DNA from: Chloroflexota bacterium
GTDB lineage: Bacteria > Chloroflexota > Anaerolineae > Anaerolineales > VGOW01
DNA: 33,793 nt
Direction of reading: 5' to 3'
Assembly: GCA_016875735.1 (NCBI GenBank)
Contig: VGOW01000041.1
Coordinates: 1-33,793, forward strand
The translations under genes were made by a program, and so were the position numbers. The notes under the pieces are model-generated. The model was not told the origin of the DNA. It saw nothing but the letters and a program-made list of their open reading frames with translations, and did not search any database. This document shows, in pieces, positions 1 to 33,793 of this stretch (within the stretch, counting starts at the first letter, position 1; each line of letters starts with the position of its first letter).

Positions 1-1693
1 CGCGGTCGCGGTCGAGGGCGAGGGCGCGGGCGCGGGCGCGGGCGCGGGCGAGGGCGAGGGCGAGGTCGAGGGCGAGGTCGAGGTCGAGGTCGAGGTCGCG
101 GGCGAGGGCGAGGGCGAGGTCGAGGGCGAGATCAGTGTTGGCGCGCGCTAACGCGCGCGCCAACACGGGATGCCGCACATCTCCATAGTCCAGCGCCTTT
201 TGCGCCGCCCACCCCAGCAAGCGGCAGAGTGGCTCGTCATTCGCCACCAACCCATCCACCCTGCGGCGAAAGCGGGCAATGAAAGTATCGGCCTCGTTCA
301 ACATGCTGGCCGTGAGCAAAAGCACTTCGCGCCAGCGGCGGTCGGTAAAGTGATTATCAATCAGCAAAGCCAGCGCGCCCTCGGCGGCATTCTCTACCAC
401 ATAGCGCGCGGAGAAGTATTCCTGCAGGGTGAGGTGCGAGAAAGAATAGATGCCCCGCGCCCGTTCGACAAAGATGCCGTGCTGGGCTTCGATGGCTTTG
501 ACGATGGTTTCACCGTCGGGTGGCGCTCCGCCTTCGGCGCTCGGTAATTTGGCCATGAACGTTTCCACGCGGCCGGCCAGATCATCCTGCCGAAAGAAAA
601 TCTCGCCGCGCTCGAAATACTCGGCCGCGATCTGGGCAAACAACTGCCGCTTGCGCCCCAACGACAGGCCGCGATACACCTTGTCGCGCCGGATGTTGCG
701 AGCCGAGTCCCACTTCTTCAGCAGGGCTTCCAAGGCTTCTTCGTACACTTCGGCGCGGCGCGGCGGGAAGATGAGGGTCTCTTCGAACGAGAGGCACAGC
801 AGGGTGAGCAACAGCGGGGTTTGGGCCAGTTCGCGCAGGCCGCTGTGTTCGGCTTTCTCCAGTTCATCTAAAAACCGTTCGGCTTTCTCCGAGTCATTCC
901 CGAACCATTTGGCGGCGAAGGTTTTGATCTGTTCGGAGTCGAAGTCGGCGATCTCCACATCGGTGAAGCCGTTGAAGGCATAATCGCTGGCGGCGATGCG
1001 GCAGGTGATGATGTGCTTGTTCTTCGGATACTGTTTGATGAAATCGTTGATGGCCGTCGTCAGCGCCGCGCGCCGTTCGCCCTCCACATTCACTTCGTCC
1101 AGCCCGTCGAACAACACCATCGCCCAGCCCTTTTTCAGAATATGCTCGATGAACGGCGCGGCTTCGGGGAAGGCGCAGATCTCGAACTGCCGGGCGATGA
1201 ACTGAGCCAGCGTTTGCCCGCTATTCGACCATTCGTGCAGGGAAATGAAAATGGGAATGCGCTCGATGCGATTGTCGAGGGCTTGCAGGGTGAGGAATTT
1301 GAGAAACGTGGTTTTGCCCGCGCCGGGTTTGCCCAGCACGTAGAGGCGGTCTCTCTCTTTCGCCAGCCCCAGAGCATTCTGCCGCTCGGCCTGGCCGCGC
1401 AGGGATCGAGTCTCTTCGTGTTCCTTGCGCAGCTGCTCGATGTCGAAACGGCGGAGCGCGGTGGGCCTGTCTAAAATATGAACGTCGGTGTAAATGCCCT
1501 CCACCGCAACGGGGTCGGGCTTGCCCAGCACGCGCATGGTGGAATACAAGTCTTTCATGCGGGCGTGGTATTTCTTGGCCGCCTCGAGCCAGCGGAACTG
1601 ATCCCAGTCCTTCCTGAATTGGCCTGAGACTTTATCTTTGATCTCTTTGCTGAAGTTATCCCACAGCCACACGCCCGCGGCGATGAAATCCAT
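1..1693 (-). CDS. NACHT-domain STAND NTPase, partial (C-terminus beyond window)
   Basis: About 564 codons are visible and the frame is still open at the left edge. The Walker A loop GKPGAGKTT lies at residues 121-129 and the Walker B motif LFDGLDEV at about 193-200; the GxDE form is typical of NACHT. The block HLTLQEYFSAR near residue 420 matches the conserved end of the NACHT helical region. From about residue 512 the protein becomes a strictly alternating Leu/Arg then Ala/Asp tail encoded by hexamers. There are no transmembrane segments, so it is probably cytosolic. STAND NTPases usually oligomerise on ligand sensing and many bacterial NACHT proteins act in phage defence; that role is inference here. 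The start at 1693 follows AAGGTGA, and the upstream gene's TGA lies inside this Shine-Dalgarno sequence, so translation is probably coupled. It is the third gene of an apparent parA-nucleotidyltransferase-NACHT operon. Confidence 0.9.
   Translation of the reverse strand, partial: MDFIAAGVWLWDNFSKEIKDKVSGQFRKDWDQFRWLEAAKKYHARMKDLYSTMRVLGKPDPVAVEGIYTDVHILDRPTALRRFDIEQLRKEHEETRSLRGQAERQNALGLAKERDRLYVLGKPGAGKTTFLKFLTLQALDNRIERIPIFISLHEWSNSGQTLAQFIARQFEICAFPEAAPFIEHILKKGWAMVLFDGLDEVNVEGERRAALTTAINDFIKQYPKNKHIITCRIAASDYAFNGFTDVEIADFDSEQIKTFAAKWFGNDSEKAERFLDELEKAEHSGLRELAQTPLLLTLLCLSFEETLIFPPRRAEVYEEALEALLKKWDSARNIRRDKVYRGLSLGRKRQLFAQIAAEYFERGEIFFRQDDLAGRVETFMAKLPSAEGGAPPDGETIVKAIEAQHGIFVERARGIYSFSHLTLQEYFSARYVVENAAEGALALLIDNHFTDRRWREVLLLTASMLNEADTFIARFRRRVDGLVANDEPLCRLLGWAAQKALDYGDVRHPVLARALARANTDLALDLALALARDLDLDLDLALDLALALARARARARALALDRDR
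2..133 (-). repeat. Hexanucleotide coding repeat in the NACHT tail
   Basis: Read on the minus strand this is about 21 consecutive hexamers of the form C(T/G)C G(C/A)C. Each codon varies only in its middle base, giving Leu or Arg followed by Ala or Asp. The only visible departure in bases 2-133 is the Asp codon at 131-133, which is GAT instead of GAC. Because six is divisible by three, unit gain or loss keeps the reading frame. The tract continues to the window edge. Confidence 0.95.
135..166. repeat. Perfect 14-bp inverted repeat inside the NACHT gene
   Basis: The arms at 135-148 and 153-166 (GTGTTGGCGCGCGC and its complement) flank a four-base loop. It sits in frame at the start of the repetitive tail and encodes part of the Leu/Ala/Arg stretch. 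There is no T-run, so a terminator is unlikely. Confidence 0.85.
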
Positions 1694-1704
1694 GCTGTTC
1701 ACCT

Positions 1705-2373
1705 TCACCCACGGAAATTCTTGTCGAATCTTTCAATGCGTTGCTCGATTTCGGCGACGATCTCGCGTAGCGAGTCGATATCGCTTGTAGAGAGGTGGTG
1801 AGCGAGAATTTCCAACAGCGGATCGAGAACAGGCCGGTAATCGTGAATGAGGGCCGCAATGTCGCTCTCGTAAATGCCAACACGAGAGAAATTCCCCTGC
1901 CGGTATAACGAAGGCAGGGCATACAGTTTTAGCAACAGCAACCCTTCGACGGTTGCGCACGGAATCTCTTGCTCGGCGAAAGGCTGAGGAGCAGTATGCT
2001 GTTGGCCGACTCTCTCGAAGAGCGGGTTGCTGGTGAGAAGGATGTCGATCTGGAGAGCGTCGAATTTGCCGCGGGCGAAATCCTTGTCCTGGCTTTCGAT
2101 CTGAATCTCCGGCAATGCTCTCAACGACGACACAGCCATAATCAGATCGACATCTTCGGTATTGCGGCCTTCGACGAACTGCAGCATTGCCACACCGCCG
2201 ACGAGCGCGTACTCTATCTGTCGTTCACGCAGAAGGTCAAACAGATGCGCAACGGTTTGCAGGAGGGAGTCTGCGGCCATAGCATCTTCTCGCTTGTTTC
2301 TGAAGTTGAAGACAACGGCGTTTCGAACCACCTCGCCGATGCGAATTCTCTTGGAAGCGGTCGTTGCGATCAT
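1705..2373 (-). CDS. Nucleotidyltransferase-fold protein (AbiEii/MNT-like)
   Basis: This 222-residue protein carries the nucleotidyltransferase signature: LVGGVAM at residues 57-63, then TEDVDL with Asp74 and Asp76 as likely metal ligands, and a later DALQIDILL that could supply the third Asp. The fold is shared by AbiEii toxins, MNT antitoxins and uncharacterised single-domain proteins; which applies here cannot be told from sequence. The first ATG is four bases after the parA stop. An internal Met32 (position 2280), preceded by a weak purine stretch, would start nearer the conserved domain and is an alternative. Its stop codon is embedded in the Shine-Dalgarno sequence of the NACHT gene, which suggests coupled expression and a shared function. 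Confidence 0.8.
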   Translation of the reverse strand: MIATTASKRIRIGEVVRNAVVFNFRNKREDAMAADSLLQTVAHLFDLLRERQIEYALVGGVAMLQFVEGRNTEDVDLIMAVSSLRALPEIQIESQDKDFARGKFDALQIDILLTSNPLFERVGQQHTAPQPFAEQEIPCATVEGLLLLKLYALPSLYRQGNFSRVGIYESDIAALIHDYRPVLDPLLEILAHHLSTSDIDSLREIVAEIEQRIERFDKNFRG

Positions 2374-2377
2374 ACTG

Positions 2378-3145
2378 TCACGCTTGATCGCCTTTCAGCA
2401 GTTCCTCGGCCAGCGCGTGGTAGGCTTGCGCTCCGGCAGAGGAAGCGGCGTAGGCCGAGATGGGCACGCCGTGCGAAGGGGCCTCGGCCAGGCGCACACT
2501 GCGCGGGATGATGCTCTTGAACACTTTGCCGGGGAAGTGTTTGCGAACTTCGGCGAGCACTTGCGATGAAAGGCCGGTGCGGGCGTCGAACATGGTCATC
2601 ACCACGCCGCGCACGTGCAGGCCGGTGTTGAGCGCCGAGCGCACGCGGTTGATCGTCTGCACCAGCTGCCCCAAACCTTCGAGGGCGAGGTACTCGCACT
2701 GCACCGGAATGATAACCGCTTCGGAGGCGACCAGCGCGTTGACGGTGAGCAGGCTGAGTGAAGGCGGGCAGTCGATCAAAATGTAATCGTAATTGCCTTT
2801 CAGTGAGGCGAGGCGAGTCTTGAGCCGAGTCTCGCGGGCCAGCTCGTTCACCAGTTCCACATCGGCGCCGGAGAGTTCGGGCGAGGAGGGCATGAGCGAG
2901 AGGTTGAGTTTGGGGCTGACGAGGATCGCATCGGCGGGCTTCTCGCCTTCGATCAGCACATCATAGATGCTCGTCTTCACTTTGTGTTTGTCGATGCCGA
3001 GACACGAGGTGGTGTTGGCTTGCGGATCGAGATCGATCAACAGCACGCGCTGGCCGAGTTGCGCCAGATACGCGCCGAGATTGATGGCGGTGGTAGTTTT
3101 GCCAACGCCGCCTTTTTGATTAACGAGGGCGTAGATGTGGGGCAT
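2378..3145 (-). CDS. parA: ParA/Soj-family partition ATPase
   Basis: This 255-residue protein has the deviant Walker A motif KGGVGKTT at residues 11-18, the Walker A-prime LLIDLDPQ, and the Walker B region YDYILIDCPPS. The length is typical of chromosomal Soj/ParA. These ATPases bind DNA non-specifically in the ATP form and position ParB-parS complexes. No parB lies beside it in the window; instead the next genes on the same strand are a nucleotidyltransferase-fold protein and a NACHT NTPase with spacers of 4 and 11 bases. It may be the chromosomal partition ATPase with a read-through operon, or a ParA recruited to an accessory module. A TAAAAT box lies about 40 bases upstream. Confidence 0.95.
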   Translation of the reverse strand: MPHIYALVNQKGGVGKTTTAINLGAYLAQLGQRVLLIDLDPQANTTSCLGIDKHKVKTSIYDVLIEGEKPADAILVSPKLNLSLMPSSPELSGADVELVNELARETRLKTRLASLKGNYDYILIDCPPSLSLLTVNALVASEAVIIPVQCEYLALEGLGQLVQTINRVRSALNTGLHVRGVVMTMFDARTGLSSQVLAEVRKHFPGKVFKSIIPRSVRLAEAPSHGVPISAYAASSAGAQAYHALAEELLKGDQA

Positions 3146-22357: not shown

Positions 22358-25300
22358 ATGCCCAAGCCTTCGCCTCTGCTCCTCGAACAATCTGACGCTC
22401 TAACACTGGCAATGGAAATTCGCGCCGCCGCCGAAAAGGCCATCCGCGCTGGCGCAAAAGGCGCGGCGCTGGAAGCAAACTTTGAAGATGCGATGCGCCC
22501 GGTGCTAGAGGGCGCGGCGAAACGGCTGGGGGTCGAAATCGATCTGTCATCCCAAGTCAAAATCATCGGAGCCGGGCGTGCGGGTGGCACAGGCAAAGCT
22601 GATTTGGTTTTCAGCAACGTCATGCTCGAACTGAAAGCGCCCGGCAGATTTATTGCCTCACGTGGATGCAAGTTTGAGATGCCGAAAATCTCGGAAACCG
22701 AAGTTGAAGAGCCGGGCTTGCCGCTCGCGCTCGGCCCCGGCAACAAGGAAGCGATTGGCGAACTGACCCGCTACATCATCCGCCGCGCTCAAGAGGAGCA
22801 TAGCGACACATGGGCCGATCATGTCGGCGATTATGCCGGGGTGGGTCTTGACGGTTACTATATCTTCTTCGTGCGGTATTTGCCGCCGTTGAGCATGTTC
22901 GACGTTTCGGAAGCCGCGCCCATTTCTGAAACAGAGTTCTATCCTGTTCATCGCCTGTTGATCCTCATGCGCTCGGCGCGCAAGCGCGCGCTCAGTGCTG
23001 GCAGTCTGGCCGCCGATTTTGCAATTGTAGAAGAGGGCCGCGCCCGCGCTGTCAGCCCATTGGCACAGGATATTTTGCGCCAGTTCTACGCCAAAGTGAC
23101 AGAGGCGTTGGCGCAGACCGGCAAGAATGGGGCCGCTGTGCGCGCCCGATATACTGAATGGCGCAAACTGTTTCGCGAGGCAGTTTCATTTGAGGAAAAA
23201 GAAGCCCGCACCAGATTCGGCGAATTGCAAAAGGTCTATGGCCTTCCCGGTCGCGCCGACTCGTTTGACCCCGCAGCTTTCTTCTTCGCCCTCTCCACCT
23301 ACTACGGCTTGCTGGTCAAAATGATCGCTGCCGAGCAGTTGGTCAATTACTGCTGCTCGACCGTCACCACCACGCTCGAAGCTCTCTCTGGTTACGACCC
23401 CGATACGGTCCGCCGCCACTTGCACGACATGGAGCGCGAGGGCGGCAGTTTCGCTCAATTTCACATCCGCAACTTTCTGGAGGGTGAACTGTTCGATTGG
23501 TACGTCGAGCCGTCAATCTGGGACGAGCCATTGGGCCGCGCTGTCCGCGCTATCATCGGCAAACTGGCCGAATACGAAATCGCCACTTTCGACCTGCGCC
23601 CCGAAGAAACGCGCGATCTTCTCAAAGACCTCTACCATCGTCTCTTTCCGCAAAAGCTTCGCCATGCTCTTGGCGAGTATTACACCCCCGACTGGCTGGC
23701 CGAGTTCACGCTTGAAGAGTTGAGCGAGCTTTCCGGCTACGACGGCAACCCCAACCTCCGACTTTTGGATCCAGCCTGCGGTTCCGGCACTTTTGTGGTG
23801 GAAGCGATCAAACTGGCCCGCCAATACGCCGCCGAGCGCCAACTCGATCCCGACGCCGCCCGCGCTTTGATCACGCGCAACATCGTCGGCTTTGATCTCA
23901 ACCCGCTCGCCGTCCTCACTGCTCGCGCCAACTATCTCATCGCTCTCGGCGATCTCGTGCGCGGCAAGCAAGGCTTGCTCGCTCTCAACGAGCCAATCAC
24001 CATCCCGGTTTATCTCACCGACAGCATCATGATCCCGGCCGCGCCCAAAAAGCTGGGGTTGGAACAGCAGGGCGATGTCTATCAAGTTGATCTCGAAGCG
24101 TTGAAAGAACTGCGCCCGAAAGCCCCGCCGCAAGACCAACTCCTCATCATCCCTGCGCCGGTCGTGGACGGCGGCAAGCTGGCCCAGCTTACCAGCCTCA
24201 TCCGCGAAGGCTTGGGGCGCAACTGGAAGAGCGACCGCTTCCGACAGGAAGCCGATCGGCAACTCAACTTGACCGGCCTCTACCAAAAAGCCTTGGGGTT
24301 GTCGCCCGACGATCCTACCCCTGACTCTGCTATCGGCCAGGGGCAAACCCTGCTGGCGAAACTTTACGACGACATGCGCGAACTGGAAGAGGCCGAACTG
24401 GATGGTTTGTGGGGACGGTTCCTCCTCAACCGCTTTGCCCCGGTGCTGGACGTGAAAGCCAACGGGCGTTTTGATCTCATCATCGGCAACCCGCCGTGGA
24501 TTAACTGGGAGAGCCTGCCCGACGATTACCGCGACTCGCAACAACGGCTATGGAAAGACTACGGCCTTTTCCGGCTGGCCGGCAGTGGGGCCAAAGGCAC
24601 TTCCGTTCGACATGGCGCGGGCAAGAAAGACCTCTCGATGCTGATGACCTACGTGGCAGTGGATAAACTGCTGAAGGATGGCGGGCATCTGGCGTTCGTC
24701 ATCACGCAAACAGTCTTCAAAACCGAAGCGGGCGAGGGCTTCCGCCGGTTTGTGATTCCCGATACGGTGACATTCTTCCCGCCACAGCGCGTTCACGACC
24801 TGAGCAGTTTTCAGCCGTTCGAGGGCGCCACCAACCGCACGGCGGTTTTCGTGGTGAAGAAAGACCCGGCGGCGAAGCGCGTTGACTATCCGGTTGACTA
24901 CTTTTTATGGCGAAAGACCGAGCCGGTGTATCCCGATGACTCGCTGGAAGCAGTGAAAAACAAGACAGATCGTTACAGGCTGGCCGCCGAGCCGGTGAAT
25001 AAAGCGCAAAACGGTTTGCTGACTGACCGCTGGCTCACGGCCAAGCGCAAGGCCATCCGCGCTCTGCGAAAATTCACTGGCACGATAGGACGGCCAGCAT
25101 ATCAAGCTTATGAAGGCTCAAACACCGGCGGCGCTAACGGAGTATATTGGCTCTCGGTTGACCAGATGATGGGCAAGAAGCACGCGCTGGTTACAAACTA
25201 TCTCAAAGGAGCAAAGCGTAAAGTCAAACAATATACAGACTACAAAATCGAAACTGACTTGCTCTATCCGCTTTTGCGTGGGCGTGATATTGGGCGATGG

Positions 25301-25993
25301 CAAGCCTCGCCGAGCTTGCACATTCTGATGGTGCAAGACCCTGACAAACGAGTCGGCTATCATGAAGATTGGTTACAAGATACAGCTCCTCTTGCTTACG
25401 CCTGGCTTAGGCAATTTAGAAAAGAACTGCTCGAACGGAAATCAAGTGTTGTCCCCAAAGATCCTTTCTACTCAATGTATGGCATCAGCACAACAACCCT
25501 CGCACCTCACAAAGTTGTGTGGTCCGAGATTGCCCACACTCTCAAAGCGGCAGTGATCGGCAGCGTGGATGATAAGCATCTTGGCGAGAAAGTCATTGTG
25601 CCAGATCACACGGTCATCATGATACCGAGTAAAGCCGAAGCGGAGGCGCACTACCTTTGCGCTCTGCTCAACTCGACCCCGGCGCAATTGGCGGCCACTG
25701 CCTATGTTGTTCTACACCCCGATCCGCATATCATCACCCGGATCGCCTTGCCCAAATTCGATCCAAAGAACGAGACGCACAAGGCGCTGGCTACCGCATC
25801 CAAAACCGCTCATCGCGCCGCCGCGAAGGGCAATACGGATAAGGTGAATGAGGCTGAAAAGGAAATTGACGGGCTGGCGGCGAAGATATGGGGACTGGAC
25901 GCCGACGAGATGCAGGACATCAAAGACAGCCTGCGCGAGATGGGAGGAACAATCGCTTATGAAGACGAAGAAGGCGAAGAAGACTGTTCCTGA
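22358..25993 (+). CDS. Single-chain restriction endonuclease / N6-adenine methyltransferase (type IIG-like)
   Basis: This 1211-residue protein has an N-terminal domain with a PD-(D/E)XK-type pattern: Asp82 in KADLVF and Glu91-Leu-Lys93 in MLELKAPG. The central methyltransferase has LGEYYTPDWLAEF, motif I DPACGSGTF from Asp471, and motif IV NPPW at 711-714, as in gamma-class N6-adenine methylases. A C-terminal region of about 350 residues from residue 860 probably recognises the target site. One polypeptide with nuclease, methylase and specificity parts is the type IIG plan. A BREX PglX-like protein is less likely because no other brx gene is near. The promoter is leaderless. A stretch around 25141-25500 is clearly less GC-rich than its surroundings. 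The 3' end overlaps the next gene by 35 bases. Confidence 0.88.
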   Translation: MPKPSPLLLEQSDALTLAMEIRAAAEKAIRAGAKGAALEANFEDAMRPVLEGAAKRLGVEIDLSSQVKIIGAGRAGGTGKADLVFSNVMLELKAPGRFIASRGCKFEMPKISETEVEEPGLPLALGPGNKEAIGELTRYIIRRAQEEHSDTWADHVGDYAGVGLDGYYIFFVRYLPPLSMFDVSEAAPISETEFYPVHRLLILMRSARKRALSAGSLAADFAIVEEGRARAVSPLAQDILRQFYAKVTEALAQTGKNGAAVRARYTEWRKLFREAVSFEEKEARTRFGELQKVYGLPGRADSFDPAAFFFALSTYYGLLVKMIAAEQLVNYCCSTVTTTLEALSGYDPDTVRRHLHDMEREGGSFAQFHIRNFLEGELFDWYVEPSIWDEPLGRAVRAIIGKLAEYEIATFDLRPEETRDLLKDLYHRLFPQKLRHALGEYYTPDWLAEFTLEELSELSGYDGNPNLRLLDPACGSGTFVVEAIKLARQYAAERQLDPDAARALITRNIVGFDLNPLAVLTARANYLIALGDLVRGKQGLLALNEPITIPVYLTDSIMIPAAPKKLGLEQQGDVYQVDLEALKELRPKAPPQDQLLIIPAPVVDGGKLAQLTSLIREGLGRNWKSDRFRQEADRQLNLTGLYQKALGLSPDDPTPDSAIGQGQTLLAKLYDDMRELEEAELDGLWGRFLLNRFAPVLDVKANGRFDLIIGNPPWINWESLPDDYRDSQQRLWKDYGLFRLAGSGAKGTSVRHGAGKKDLSMLMTYVAVDKLLKDGGHLAFVITQTVFKTEAGEGFRRFVIPDTVTFFPPQRVHDLSSFQPFEGATNRTAVFVVKKDPAAKRVDYPVDYFLWRKTEPVYPDDSLEAVKNKTDRYRLAAEPVNKAQNGLLTDRWLTAKRKAIRALRKFTGTIGRPAYQAYEGSNTGGANGVYWLSVDQMMGKKHALVTNYLKGAKRKVKQYTDYKIETDLLYPLLRGRDIGRWQASPSLHILMVQDPDKRVGYHEDWLQDTAPLAYAWLRQFRKELLERKSSVVPKDPFYSMYGISTTTLAPHKVVWSEIAHTLKAAVIGSVDDKHLGEKVIVPDHTVIMIPSKAEAEAHYLCALLNSTPAQLAATAYVVLHPDPHIITRIALPKFDPKNETHKALATASKTAHRAAAKGNTDKVNEAEKEIDGLAAKIWGLDADEMQDIKDSLREMGGTIAYEDEEGEEDCS

Positions 25994-29510: not shown

Positions 29511-30791
29511 TTGGAACAATTCATCATCGAAGGGGGACACCCGCTGCACGGCACGGTGCGGCCATCGGGCAACAAAAATGCCGCCCTGCCACTCTTGGCC
29601 GCTTGCCTGCTCACCGATCAGCCCGTCATCCTGCGTAACGTGCCCACCATCCGCGACGCGCAAACCATGCGCGAATTGTTGGCCGACGTGGGCGCAACCC
29701 TCGACGAGATCGACGCCCACACCGTGCGCATCCAAGCCAAAGACTTGCGCAACGCGGAGCCGAATCCCGATTCATCGCGCGCCATTCGCGCTTCGATGCT
29801 GTTGGCCGGGCCGCTGCTCGCCCGCGTCGGACAGATCGCCCTGCCCCCGCCCGGCGGCGACGTGATCGGGCGGCGGCGGCTCGACACTCATCTGTTGGCC
29901 TTCGAGGCGTTGGGCGCCGACTCGCACTTCGACGGGCGCTTCGAACTGAAAACGTCCGGCCTGCGCGGCGCAGACATTTTGCTCGACGAAGCCAGCGTGA
30001 CCGGCACCGAAAACGCGGTGATGGCCGCCGTGTTGGCCAAAGGCACAACGCACATCCGCAACGCCGCCTCCGAGCCGCACGTGCAGGAACTCTGCCTCTT
30101 TCTCAATCAACTCGGCGCGCGCATCTCCGGCATCGGGTCGAACACGCTCGCCATCGAAGGCGTTCCCTCACTGCGCGGCGGCGAGTTCACCATCGGCTCC
30201 GATTATCTCGAAGTGGTCAGTTTCATCGGCGCGGCGGCCGTCACTGGCGGCTCAATCCGAATCGAAAACGCCGGGCCGCAATATCTCAACATGATCTCGC
30301 TCGTCTTCCACCGGCTCGGCGTGCATTGGCAAACGGAGGGCGATGACATCATCGTGCCCGCCGAGCAATCGCTGGCCGTTGTGCCCGATCTCGGCGGCGC
30401 GATTCCCGAAATCAAAACCAACGTGTGGCCGGCCTTCCCCACCGATCTCACCAGCATTGCCATCGCCGTGGCCACGCAGGCCAGCGGCTCGGTGCTATTC
30501 CACGATTGGATGCACTCTGGGCGAATGTATTTCATCGACAAACTGGTGGGCATGGGCGCGCGCATCATTCTGTGCGACCCGCACCGATGCCTTGTGCAAG
30601 GCCCCAACCGTTTGCAGGCCGAGCGGCTCGAAAGCCCCGACATCCGCGCCGGGATGAGCATTCTGTTGGCCGCGCTGTGCGCGCAGGGCACGTCGGTCAT
30701 TCGCAACATCGGGCAGATCGAGCGCGGCTATGAACGCATCGACGAAAAACTGCGCGCGCTCGGCGCGAACATCCAGCGCGCGCAAGCATGA
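29511..30791 (+). CDS. murA: UDP-N-acetylglucosamine 1-carboxyvinyltransferase with Asp in place of the active-site Cys
   Basis: MurA adds enolpyruvate to UDP-GlcNAc, the first committed step of peptidoglycan synthesis. The 426-residue protein has SGNKNAALPLLAACLL at the N-terminus and the usual two-domain repeats. In the catalytic loop, where most MurA proteins have GGCxIGxRP, this one has GGDVIGRRR with Asp117. Cys-to-Asp at this site is the known natural change in mycobacterial and chlamydial MurA that prevents fosfomycin alkylation. The start is a TTG at 29511 with GAGGA just upstream. Its stop overlaps the next gene's ATG by four bases (ATGA). Confidence 0.96.
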   Translation: MEQFIIEGGHPLHGTVRPSGNKNAALPLLAACLLTDQPVILRNVPTIRDAQTMRELLADVGATLDEIDAHTVRIQAKDLRNAEPNPDSSRAIRASMLLAGPLLARVGQIALPPPGGDVIGRRRLDTHLLAFEALGADSHFDGRFELKTSGLRGADILLDEASVTGTENAVMAAVLAKGTTHIRNAASEPHVQELCLFLNQLGARISGIGSNTLAIEGVPSLRGGEFTIGSDYLEVVSFIGAAAVTGGSIRIENAGPQYLNMISLVFHRLGVHWQTEGDDIIVPAEQSLAVVPDLGGAIPEIKTNVWPAFPTDLTSIAIAVATQASGSVLFHDWMHSGRMYFIDKLVGMGARIILCDPHRCLVQGPNRLQAERLESPDIRAGMSILLAALCAQGTSVIRNIGQIERGYERIDEKLRALGANIQRAQA

Positions 30792-31609
30792 CTCTCTTCC
30801 AAAAGCACATCGCTTTGCCCCAACAACACGGCGCGTGGGCCATTTGGCTCGGACCTTTCGCCATCGGCATCGGTGTGAGCGAGACGGCGCTCAAACCCGG
30901 ATTGCTGTGGCTGGCCCTCGCCAGCCTCGGCGGCTTCTTCGCTCTGCAACCGCTCACCCTCTTCGTCAAAGTCCTCGCCCGCCGCCGCCCGCGCGCCGAT
31001 CTCATCCCCGCCGCATTTTGGATCATTGCCTACGGACTCGTCACTGCCATCGGCGCGTTCGGATTGATCCTCACCGGCAACGGTTTTCTGTTGTGGCTCG
31101 GCCTCGCCGCCCTGCCCGTGCTGGCTTGGCAAATGTGGCTCGTGGCTCGCCGCGAAGAGCGCGGCCAAATGGGGGTGGAAGTGGTGGGCGCGGGCGTGTT
31201 GTGCATGGCCACCCCCGCCGCCGTGTGGGCCGACACGGGGGCGATGTCCCCTGCCGGATGGTGGCTGTTCGCGCTGTGCTGGCTGCAAGCCGCGGGCGCA
31301 ATCGTGTACGTCTATCTCCGGCTCGAACACCGCCGCATGACGACTCTGCCCGAATGGAATGAGCGAGTCAAACTCGCGCGGCGATCCATGCTCTACAGCA
31401 TCGCCAACGTGATCATCGCCGCGGCGCTGGCCGCCTTCGGAGTCGCGCCGCCGGGTATCATCGCCGCCTTCGCCGCCATGCTCGCCGAGTCTGTTTATGG
31501 CGGACTCGCGCGGCCGGGCATCGGAGCGAAACCCTCCTCCATCGGCGTGCGGCAGATCATCGTCACCGTCCTGTTCGCGGTGTTGATGATCATTGCGTAT
31601 CGAATGTAG
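30788..31609 (+). CDS. YwiC-like membrane protein
   Basis: This 273-residue protein opens with LPQQHGAWAIW, the signature of YwiC-like proteins, and has about seven or eight transmembrane segments. The family function is unknown; the conserved Gln-Gln-His-Gly at the start recalls membrane prenyltransferase relatives, but I see no strong evidence for that activity. It overlaps murA by four bases and must be translated from the same message. A role near the cell envelope is plausible from the neighbour only. Confidence 0.85.
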   Translation: MTLFQKHIALPQQHGAWAIWLGPFAIGIGVSETALKPGLLWLALASLGGFFALQPLTLFVKVLARRRPRADLIPAAFWIIAYGLVTAIGAFGLILTGNGFLLWLGLAALPVLAWQMWLVARREERGQMGVEVVGAGVLCMATPAAVWADTGAMSPAGWWLFALCWLQAAGAIVYVYLRLEHRRMTTLPEWNERVKLARRSMLYSIANVIIAAALAAFGVAPPGIIAAFAAMLAESVYGGLARPGIGAKPSSIGVRQIIVTVLFAVLMIIAYRM

Positions 31610-32135: not shown

Positions 32136-33793
32136 ATGGCCGTCGTTCTCTCGCTCCGCACAATCGATTTCGCAATCACCCCATCGATCAACGGTGAGCC
32201 GCTGGCCGCGCCCGCGCCGCTGGCCTCACTGCCCGATCTGAAAACACTGCAAGCCGATGCGCGCGCGCACGGCCGAGCCCTTTTCGCCGCGCTCGGCGGC
32301 GAGGCGCTCCGCGCCCGGCTCGACTCGGACTCCGATCGCCTTCTGCTCATCGACGCCGACGAACCCGCCGACCGCATTCCGTGGGAGTTCGCCGCACTGC
32401 CCGATCATCAATGGCTCGTTTTGCAATACGGCGTTCTGCGATTGGTGGATACGCCCGCCGTGCCCGCGCCTTCGGGGTCGCGGTTGGCGTTCATGGCTAT
32501 GGCCGCCGACCCGCTGGCCGACGAAAACGGAAACCTCACCGGCCCGCGCCTCCAACTCGATTTCGAAGTGAAGAAGATTCGGCGTGCGCTGAAAGAATGC
32601 GCTGTGGCTCTCGACGCCGAACGACTGCCGCCCACTCGCAACGCTCTGCAAAAAGCGTTGCGCCGCGTGGCCGGCCCCGCCATCCTTCACATTTCGTGTC
32701 ATGGCAACGTCGTGAAAACCGAGTCCGGCCTCTCGCCGGTGCTGTTCCTCGAAACGCGCGACAGCCGCGCCGACCCGCTGAACGGGCGCGATCTGTTGGG
32801 CATGGCCGCGCCCGGCACACTGCGCCTCGTGCTGCTCAGCGCCTGCCGCACCGCGCAGAACGACACCGCCCTCGCCCGCGCGCTCGTGCGCGGCGGCGTG
32901 CCGTTCGCCATCGGCATGCAGGGCGACTTCCCCGACGCGCAGAGCGACGAACTGGCCGAAGGGTTGTACGACACCGCGCTCGCCGGTCACTCGTTGGCCG
33001 AGAGCCTGCGGCAGGCGCGGCGGGCGATCAGCCGCGACGACTCGGCGGTGGGCCTGCCCGTGGGCTACACGGCGCGTGAAGGGTGGGGACCGATTCCGCG
33101 CCCGGCGGGGAGTCCCAACGTGCGCGCGCTCGGCCTGCCCGGATTCGTCGATCTGCCTCCCGAAGTTCAGCCGCCGACTCCGTTGCTGGGGCGCGATCTC
33201 GATCTGCATCGCATCGCTTCCGAGTTTTCCGAAGAGGGGCGCACGGTGGTGACGATTTGCGGAACGGGCGGCATGGGCAAAACCGCGCTGGCCGCCGCCT
33301 TCGCCGCCCGGTTCGCGTGGCGCTGGCCCAATGGCGCGCGCGGCCTGTCGTTCGCCAGCGATGTGATCGACCCCGCCGCTTTCCGCGCCGCGCTTCTGCG
33401 CCATTTGCTCGGCGAGGGCGAAGCGATGCGGCTGGCTCCGGCCTCCGCCGAGGCGCAGACGAGCGCGATCCTCGCCGCCGCCGGCGATTGGGACGGACTG
33501 CTGTTGATCGACAACTACGAAACGATCTTGCAGGGCCTCGAGAATCATCAACCCGAGGCCGAGTCCGTTCACCGCATCGTGGCGCAACTGGCCAATGGCG
33601 GCGCGAATCTTTTGCTCACCAGCCGCCAACAACCGGCGGGCTTGCGCGGCGAAATCCTTTACCCGCGCGCGGGCAAACTGCTGGAAGGCCTCGACGACGA
33701 ACCCGCCGCGCGACTCTTTTTGCAGCACAGCAGTAAAGCCAAAGACGAATCGGCATGGAAGTTTGCAAACGAAGTGGCGCGGGCCGCCGAGGG
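32136..33793 (+). CDS. CHAT protease-STAND NTPase, partial (C-terminus beyond window)
   Basis: About 552 codons are visible and the frame is open at the right edge. The N-terminal CHAT (caspase-like) domain spans about residues 60-310: LHISCHGN has the catalytic His189 and LLSACRTA the catalytic Cys237, the expected dyad. An NTPase domain follows after the PLLGRDLDL box, with Walker A CGTGGMGKT (Lys382), Walker B LLLIDNYE (Asp459) and the sensor-like LLLTSRQ. CHAT fused to a STAND NTPase, usually with repeats at the C-terminus, is a sensor-switch-protease plan; some members act in defence or cell-death systems. GGGGG precedes the ATG by four bases. It is the last gene in the window, so partners cannot be judged. 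Confidence 0.92.
   Translation, partial: MAVVLSLRTIDFAITPSINGEPLAAPAPLASLPDLKTLQADARAHGRALFAALGGEALRARLDSDSDRLLLIDADEPADRIPWEFAALPDHQWLVLQYGVLRLVDTPAVPAPSGSRLAFMAMAADPLADENGNLTGPRLQLDFEVKKIRRALKECAVALDAERLPPTRNALQKALRRVAGPAILHISCHGNVVKTESGLSPVLFLETRDSRADPLNGRDLLGMAAPGTLRLVLLSACRTAQNDTALARALVRGGVPFAIGMQGDFPDAQSDELAEGLYDTALAGHSLAESLRQARRAISRDDSAVGLPVGYTAREGWGPIPRPAGSPNVRALGLPGFVDLPPEVQPPTPLLGRDLDLHRIASEFSEEGRTVVTICGTGGMGKTALAAAFAARFAWRWPNGARGLSFASDVIDPAAFRAALLRHLLGEGEAMRLAPASAEAQTSAILAAAGDWDGLLLIDNYETILQGLENHQPEAESVHRIVAQLANGGANLLLTSRQQPAGLRGEILYPRAGKLLEGLDDEPAARLFLQHSSKAKDESAWKFANEVARAAE

Follow-up and report, generated by a model that had tools for sequence, protein, structure and literature searches.

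Genes at the ends of the contig

The window, that is, the whole stretch of 33,793 nucleotides analysed here, is an entire contig (G000:C41) of a 4.15 Mb genome that is 97.8% complete in 150 contigs. At its right end lies an ORF, coding by score, in which a CHAT protease domain precedes a putative STAND NTPase; at its left end lies part of a NACHT NTPase gene. The truncation of both genes is therefore due to the ends of the contig and not to the choice of window. The relevant features are the following.

2-1708 (-): NACHT NTPase gene, left edge (Pfam NACHT, E 2.8e-13, over cut-off)
29511-31609 (+): upstream neighbours, genes for a MurA-like member of the EPSP-synthase family and for a YwiC-like membrane protein (Pfam); no partner gene
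32136-33791 (+): 5' part of the putative CHAT-STAND-TPR gene, 552 codons (ORF call, coding score), open at the contig end
32265-33044 (+): CHAT (caspase-like) protease domain, residues 44-303 (PF12770, E 3.3e-31; structure-model matches)
32700-32702 (+): codon of catalytic His189, motif ISCHGN (H in 24/24 aligned sequences)
32844-32846 (+): codon of catalytic Cys237, motif LSACRT (C in 24/24 aligned sequences)
33261-33284 (+): Walker A of the STAND NTPase, GTGGMGKT, residue 376 (motif and alignment)
33498-33521 (+): Walker B, LLLIDNYE, residue 455 (motif and alignment)
33552-33793 (+): 242 bases that recur, with 3 mismatches, at the start of contig G000:C9 (sequence match)
33609-33626 (+): sensor-1, LLLTSR, residue 492 (motif and alignment)

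The Pfam CHAT model scores 109.3 bits on this ORF against a curated cut-off of 24, and the Walker and sensor-1 motifs follow it. A CHAT protease joined to a STAND NTPase, with a His189-Cys237 dyad and Walker motifs, had been proposed in the earlier note and is confirmed. All Pfam STAND and NTPase families stay under their cut-offs on the ORF (AAA_16 1.7e-5, NACHT 0.0019, NB-ARC 0.025, and likewise nSTAND1 and nSTAND3), so the designation rests on the motifs, the domain order and a GHPL motif in the continuation of the gene. The NTPase is accordingly described as STAND-like, and no named STAND clade is assigned. A structure model of the CHAT-NTPase part is of middling confidence (mean pLDDT 64); in a fold search its closest solved match was SAVED-CHAT (8tl0, E 2e-8), with separase and caspase-9 lower down. 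A PDB sequence search with the 552-aa protein returned a single match at E<=1, SRP54, judged to be due to chance.

The last 242 bases of the contig match the start of contig C9 at 99%, and the 80 residues encoded there are 100% identical. The three differences, at 33678, 33704 and 33725, are all synonymous, the pattern that strain variants of a single gene would be expected to show. C9 carries the presumed rest of the gene (L051:1-2280), with the GHPL motif, a TPR array and a stop at base 2280. The two contigs thus probably hold a single CHAT-STAND-TPR gene, joined through the overlap, and TPR_12 reaches 131 bits (Pfam) on the part that this join brings in. The earlier note had placed a C-terminal sensor outside the window, and extending the contig bears this out in the form of TPR repeats. 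Four 40-aa TPR units on C9 are near-identical, with a 120-bp period and 95% matches. Such 120-bp arrays with at least 95% matches occur in 9 of the 26 genes examined (L051, L084, L087, L088, L091, L094, L096, L099 and L007), vary in length among relatives, and are accompanied by several relatives' contigs that also end inside the CHAT-STAND-TPR gene; together this may explain the split of the window gene. In frame within the coding region on C9, some 110 bases (L051:1891-2000, ALTPGPSPKGRGEEEGQLPSPSGRG...) have the look of a dispersed GC-rich palindromic repeat; no long copy was found in the own-genome stretches searched.

Judged from the predicted proteins, the flanks of the window copy are housekeeping genes: those listed above upstream and, downstream on C9, genes for an ArsR-type regulator, a DsrE-like protein, TusA and an iron-sulfur protein. 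Neither a defence island nor a gene resembling a protease substrate was seen in the flanks on the two contigs, and no gasdermin is among the families that a general Pfam scan of the neighbouring ORFs listed. Elsewhere in the window, positions 22358-25993 (+) encode a protein of 1211 aa that contains an Eco57I-type methylase domain and may be a restriction-modification enzyme.

The NACHT NTPase reported earlier at the left edge is likewise confirmed. Its gene continues on contig G000:C117 through an exact 65-base overlap, where the frame ends in NCH2 (E 5e-16) and is followed by parB; on its other side lie a gene that weakly matches AbiEii-like nucleotidyltransferases and, beyond it, parA. The NACHT and AbiEii-like genes (window 2-3145 (-) and L055:1-1472) therefore lie between chromosomal parA and parB. 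Before NCH2, the protein has a long tail of alternating (Ala/Asp)-(Leu/Arg) dipeptides encoded by a hexamer-like DNA array, which has short matches in other contigs. The suggestion that the genome carries an expanded set of STAND genes was not borne out. Genome-wide counts are low: of 6 NACHT matches 1 passes the cut-off, of 3 NB-ARC matches 2 do, and CHAT occurs at 4 places. Searches with the window protein find up to 10-11 places in relatives against 4 in the own genome, 2 of which are the halves of the window gene.

Relatives of the protease

Across 400 Chloroflexota genomes, 30, the own genome included, hold a match to the window protein at E<=1e-25, and four close relatives, from named genomes of the phylum, are 44-54% identical to it. 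His189 and Cys237 are kept in all 24 aligned sequences (and in 5/5 of a smaller set that includes L006), as are Walker A, Walker B and sensor-1, the last reading TCR or SSR in a few. A protease-switch-sensor plan, as the earlier note had it, is supported by this conservation and the C-terminal TPR, and the CHAT-STAND-TPR architecture is well supported. The note had also set two observations jointly against its own reading, namely purely housekeeping downstream genes and a dyad not conserved in close homologues. The former is what the flanks show and the latter is not; since refutation required both, the reading is not refuted.

The window protein falls in a clade with 100/99 support together with L083, L006 and L005 (at a contig edge). 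The next larger clade, with 100/100 support, also takes in L084 and L085, plus L007 and L008 (contig edges). In the close relative L008 (L008:3913-6852), Walker B and sensor-1 are separated by an EAD7 adaptor domain. EAD domains are used in published conflict systems, according to the available text of PMC7159879 and PMC8195603, and this domain ties the clade to those networks. The plasmid collection holds two records with CHAT-like matches (Herpetosiphon, Acaryochloris).

At L006:9902-13731 and L085:5691-8964 the CHAT-STAND frame is broken into overlapping ORFs in different frames, by sequence error or decay. Tyrosine-recombinase-like N-termini were recognised by eye near two modules (L083:11661-12761 and an L089 ORF upstream of the module), as well as between the own genome's two NB-ARC genes (L152:6590-7591). 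Mobility is possible.

A membrane protein co-encoded with the protease

When the flanks of the relatives were read, a membrane protein of about 140-170 aa was found beside many of them. A profile built from eight such proteins recovered 24 ORFs at E<=0.01 in the loci then collected, some of which overlap. Adjacency was assessed in the 23 loci that combine a CHAT-NTPase ORF with no less than 2.3 kb of sequence on each side (L006, L083-L088, L090, L091, L093-L102, L140, L145-L147). The membrane gene lies on the same strand and within 3.7 kb of the protease gene in 20 of these loci, a count in which L083-L102 were picked from the best protease matches and several are closely related; L086, L098 and L147 lack the membrane gene. 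The partner-bearing loci also contain a small (~65-aa) zinc-ribbon ORF in 16 cases and a TIR gene in the other four (L090, L096, L097, L146); in most loci, the zinc ribbon ends a few bases from the membrane gene. Whether it stands up- or downstream of the protease gene, the pair is always codirectional with it.

The seeds of the membrane, zinc-ribbon and TIR profiles came from the very loci that later served to count adjacency, and a whole-genome search provides an independent check. Both this search and that for the protease covered 400 evenly drawn genomes of the phylum, taken as the same 400 as their handles agree. The membrane-family alignment (A1) found 28 carriers with 35 places, and 22 genomes carry both genes, given 30 protease and 28 membrane-gene carriers (Fisher odds ratio 167, p 2.2e-24). 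Among the 35 places, 23 adjoin a CHAT-NTPase ORF, including two (L136, L138) where both genes are divergent and still adjacent, and four adjoin a fragment, at the end of a contig, that by eye is TPR-like (L133, L141, L142, L143). One meets a contig end before any protease gene could come into view (L144), two fall outside the examined set, one is a partial fragment, and four have no protease nearby (L134 and L139, strong matches; L135 and L137, weak). In L144 an unrelated NTPase gene lies near the membrane gene on the opposite strand. Protein distances of protease and membrane partner correlate at r 0.88 over 16 pairs, shared ancestry included, a value matched in 0 of 2000 permutations. One plasmid record holds the membrane protein (Herpetosiphon).

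Along one branch (L090, L096, L097, L098, L133, L142, L144, L146) the zinc ribbon is replaced by a TIR-like gene, and both loci tested (L096, L142) match PF13676. This swap points to an exchangeable module between the switch and the membrane part. That three loci keep the protease without a membrane gene, one of them (L098) with its TIR-like gene in place, indicates that the pair is not obligatory. At L134:7468-8237 and L139:7701-8401 the zinc ribbon-membrane pair stands alone, with no CHAT gene in view.

The membrane family (~150 aa) has invariant columns that include L32, I40, P62, Y64, L65, P94, K118 and F129, and simple hydropathy finds three hydrophobic regions in 16 aligned members, with overlapping windows in some rows. 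A single-sequence model of the L006 member (mean pLDDT 70) shows three long helices and, at the N-terminus, a short one. In a fold search this model drew generic helical bundles; matches to NINJ1/NINJ2 filaments at Z 6.4-7.4 lie inside the noise for helical models, and no claim is made from them. Pfam and NCBIfam offered no fitting family, and no gasdermin model is among the matches listed in Pfam, NCBIfam and PADLOC. The PADLOC model PDLC01077 (C3a152, 'Type III-C specific') matches 14 of the 16 members, with a best E of 1e-52; PycTM and 2TM effector matches are weak. In the open-licence literature searched, no description of an operon of CHAT-STAND-TPR, zinc ribbon or TIR, and membrane genes was recognised.

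Probable loss of the partner in the window genome

The window copy has a protease of the right clade, with the three-helix membrane gene absent from both operon and genome. Neither the window nor L051 contains a membrane gene or a zinc-ribbon match, and the membrane family gave nothing at E<=1 in the 97.8% complete genome. Since L083 and L006, and L084 and L085 of the wider clade, all have the membrane gene together with a zinc ribbon, loss is the simplest reading, and the window genome has likely lost its membrane partner. A second case in the tree is L147, which lacks the gene beside its near-twin L102, the Herpetosiphon locus with a complete module. The persistence of the protease after partner loss argues either for another target or for slow decay of such copies. 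A substrate outside the window, as the earlier note had it, is in part sustained: beside the window copy no substrate-like gene was seen, and beside its relatives there is a strong candidate partner family.

Comparison with known systems

Bacterial gasdermin systems consist of a caspase-like protease and a co-encoded membrane-acting protein. The present module shares this pairing of a protease with a membrane protein, and differs in that its partner is an unnamed ~150-aa protein with three helices. Craspase also has co-encoded targets, and HetF is a CHAT-TPR protein; to our knowledge, a STAND NTPase is present neither in HetF nor in the TPR-CHAT (Csx29) architecture. Csx29 of the type III-E CRISPR 'Craspase' (PMC9729208 and PMC10028731, in the portions available) resembles the window protein in linking a CHAT protease to TPR under the control of a partner complex. 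Its trigger, however, is the Cas7-11 complex, and the window genome has 0 RAMP matches, whereas a Craspase would require Cas7-11/gRAMP. SAVED-CHAT of type III CRISPR/CBASS, the closest solved match to the CHAT model, is described in the accessible part of PMC11229360 as a filament-forming activated protease, whose sensor is a cyclic-nucleotide-binding SAVED domain instead of STAND-TPR. HetF of Anabaena differs by its divisome role (PMC8406250, available part).

The EACC1/EACC2-caspase and EAD-linked STAND systems likewise combine a caspase-superfamily peptidase with STAND or TPR parts (PMC7159879, PMC8195603). As far as the accessible text of these two papers goes, they occur in Chloroflexota and other multicellular bacteria and include a membrane-near two-gene system; they differ in having EACC domains (a single TM helix) or ternary MoxR-vWA cores, and the pair of three-helix and zinc-ribbon proteins is not named there.

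Proposed mechanism and alternatives

In STAND proteins the repeats sense, the NTPase oligomerises and the N-terminal domain acts. We regard it as slightly better than an even bet that the window protein is a single-chain sensor-switch-protease of the conflict-system kind, whose ancestral output was coupled to the co-encoded membrane protein. The C-terminal TPR repeats would bind a trigger, the STAND NTPase would then exchange nucleotide and oligomerise, and the N-terminal CHAT cysteine protease would turn active. Its output would, in the ancestral module of the Chloroflexota, be coupled to the three-helix membrane protein and to a protein with a zinc ribbon (or TIR). The tightness of the operon suggests a protease that cuts, releases or recruits the membrane protein, most simply as an effector; proteolysis may activate this effector, and the role of the module may lie in defence or cell death. 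In the window, where the pair is missing, the protease would act on something else or be on its way out. This small, undescribed membrane protein is likely the protease's target or partner. More tentatively, and on the unlikely side, the Chloroflexota may possess an undescribed three-part conflict system, made up of CHAT-STAND-TPR, a zinc ribbon (or TIR) and a new three-helix membrane effector. In it, the NLR-like switch would by proteolysis set off a membrane killer other than a gasdermin, with the window genome keeping the protease after losing the effector.

A comparably tentative alternative assigns the membrane protein and zinc ribbon to the sensor or anchor side, as a receptor complex, with the protease cutting an unrelated host protein. 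It would account for the window and the three loci that keep the protease without a membrane gene, for the two strong zinc ribbon-membrane pairs without a CHAT gene, and for the swap of zinc ribbon for TIR around a constant membrane protein, which fits an exchangeable module. However, at 27 of the 35 membrane-gene places the neighbour is a CHAT-STAND gene or, where the contig ends, a TPR-like fragment, and among the loci examined the membrane gene is never the operon partner of a STAND protein with another N-terminal effector. That the window copy is simply the remnant of a decaying module seems unlikely; in its favour, the membrane partner is absent from the genome though present in the clade, whereas against it the frame is open through both parts, the motifs are intact and the overlap differences are without exception synonymous.

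A developmental or divisome protease like the cyanobacterial HetF, with CHAT and TPR and no immune function, is somewhat less probable still. HetF is a divisome component (PMC8406250, in part), and the window copy sits among housekeeping genes; the patchy distribution (30/400 genomes), the near-identical repeat arrays of varying length, the repeated loss of the partner and the TIR and EAD7 associations all argue otherwise. Very improbable is an accessory of type III-C CRISPR-Cas, as the PADLOC label of 14 of 16 family members would have it. In G256 the membrane gene does have RAMP matches at a distance of about 6-14 kb, but a permease-like gene stands between them. Of 27 genomes searched, G256 alone has RAMP within 15 kb of the module among the matches listed (G331 at about 25 kb), and no Cas10-type GGDD motif was found in a plausible cas gene of the fetched loci. 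The CRISPR label thus looks like that of a chance neighbour. It may mislead CRISPR annotation, as the family mainly neighbours CHAT-STAND-TPR genes.

Implications

CHAT proteases on NLR-like switches are often annotated, and few of their targets are known. The co-inherited, same-strand membrane partner is a specific candidate for a target or co-effector, and one that is simple to test. If the proposed coupling is true, protease-fired membrane damage would extend beyond gasdermins, and the window indicates that the protease can outlive its partner.
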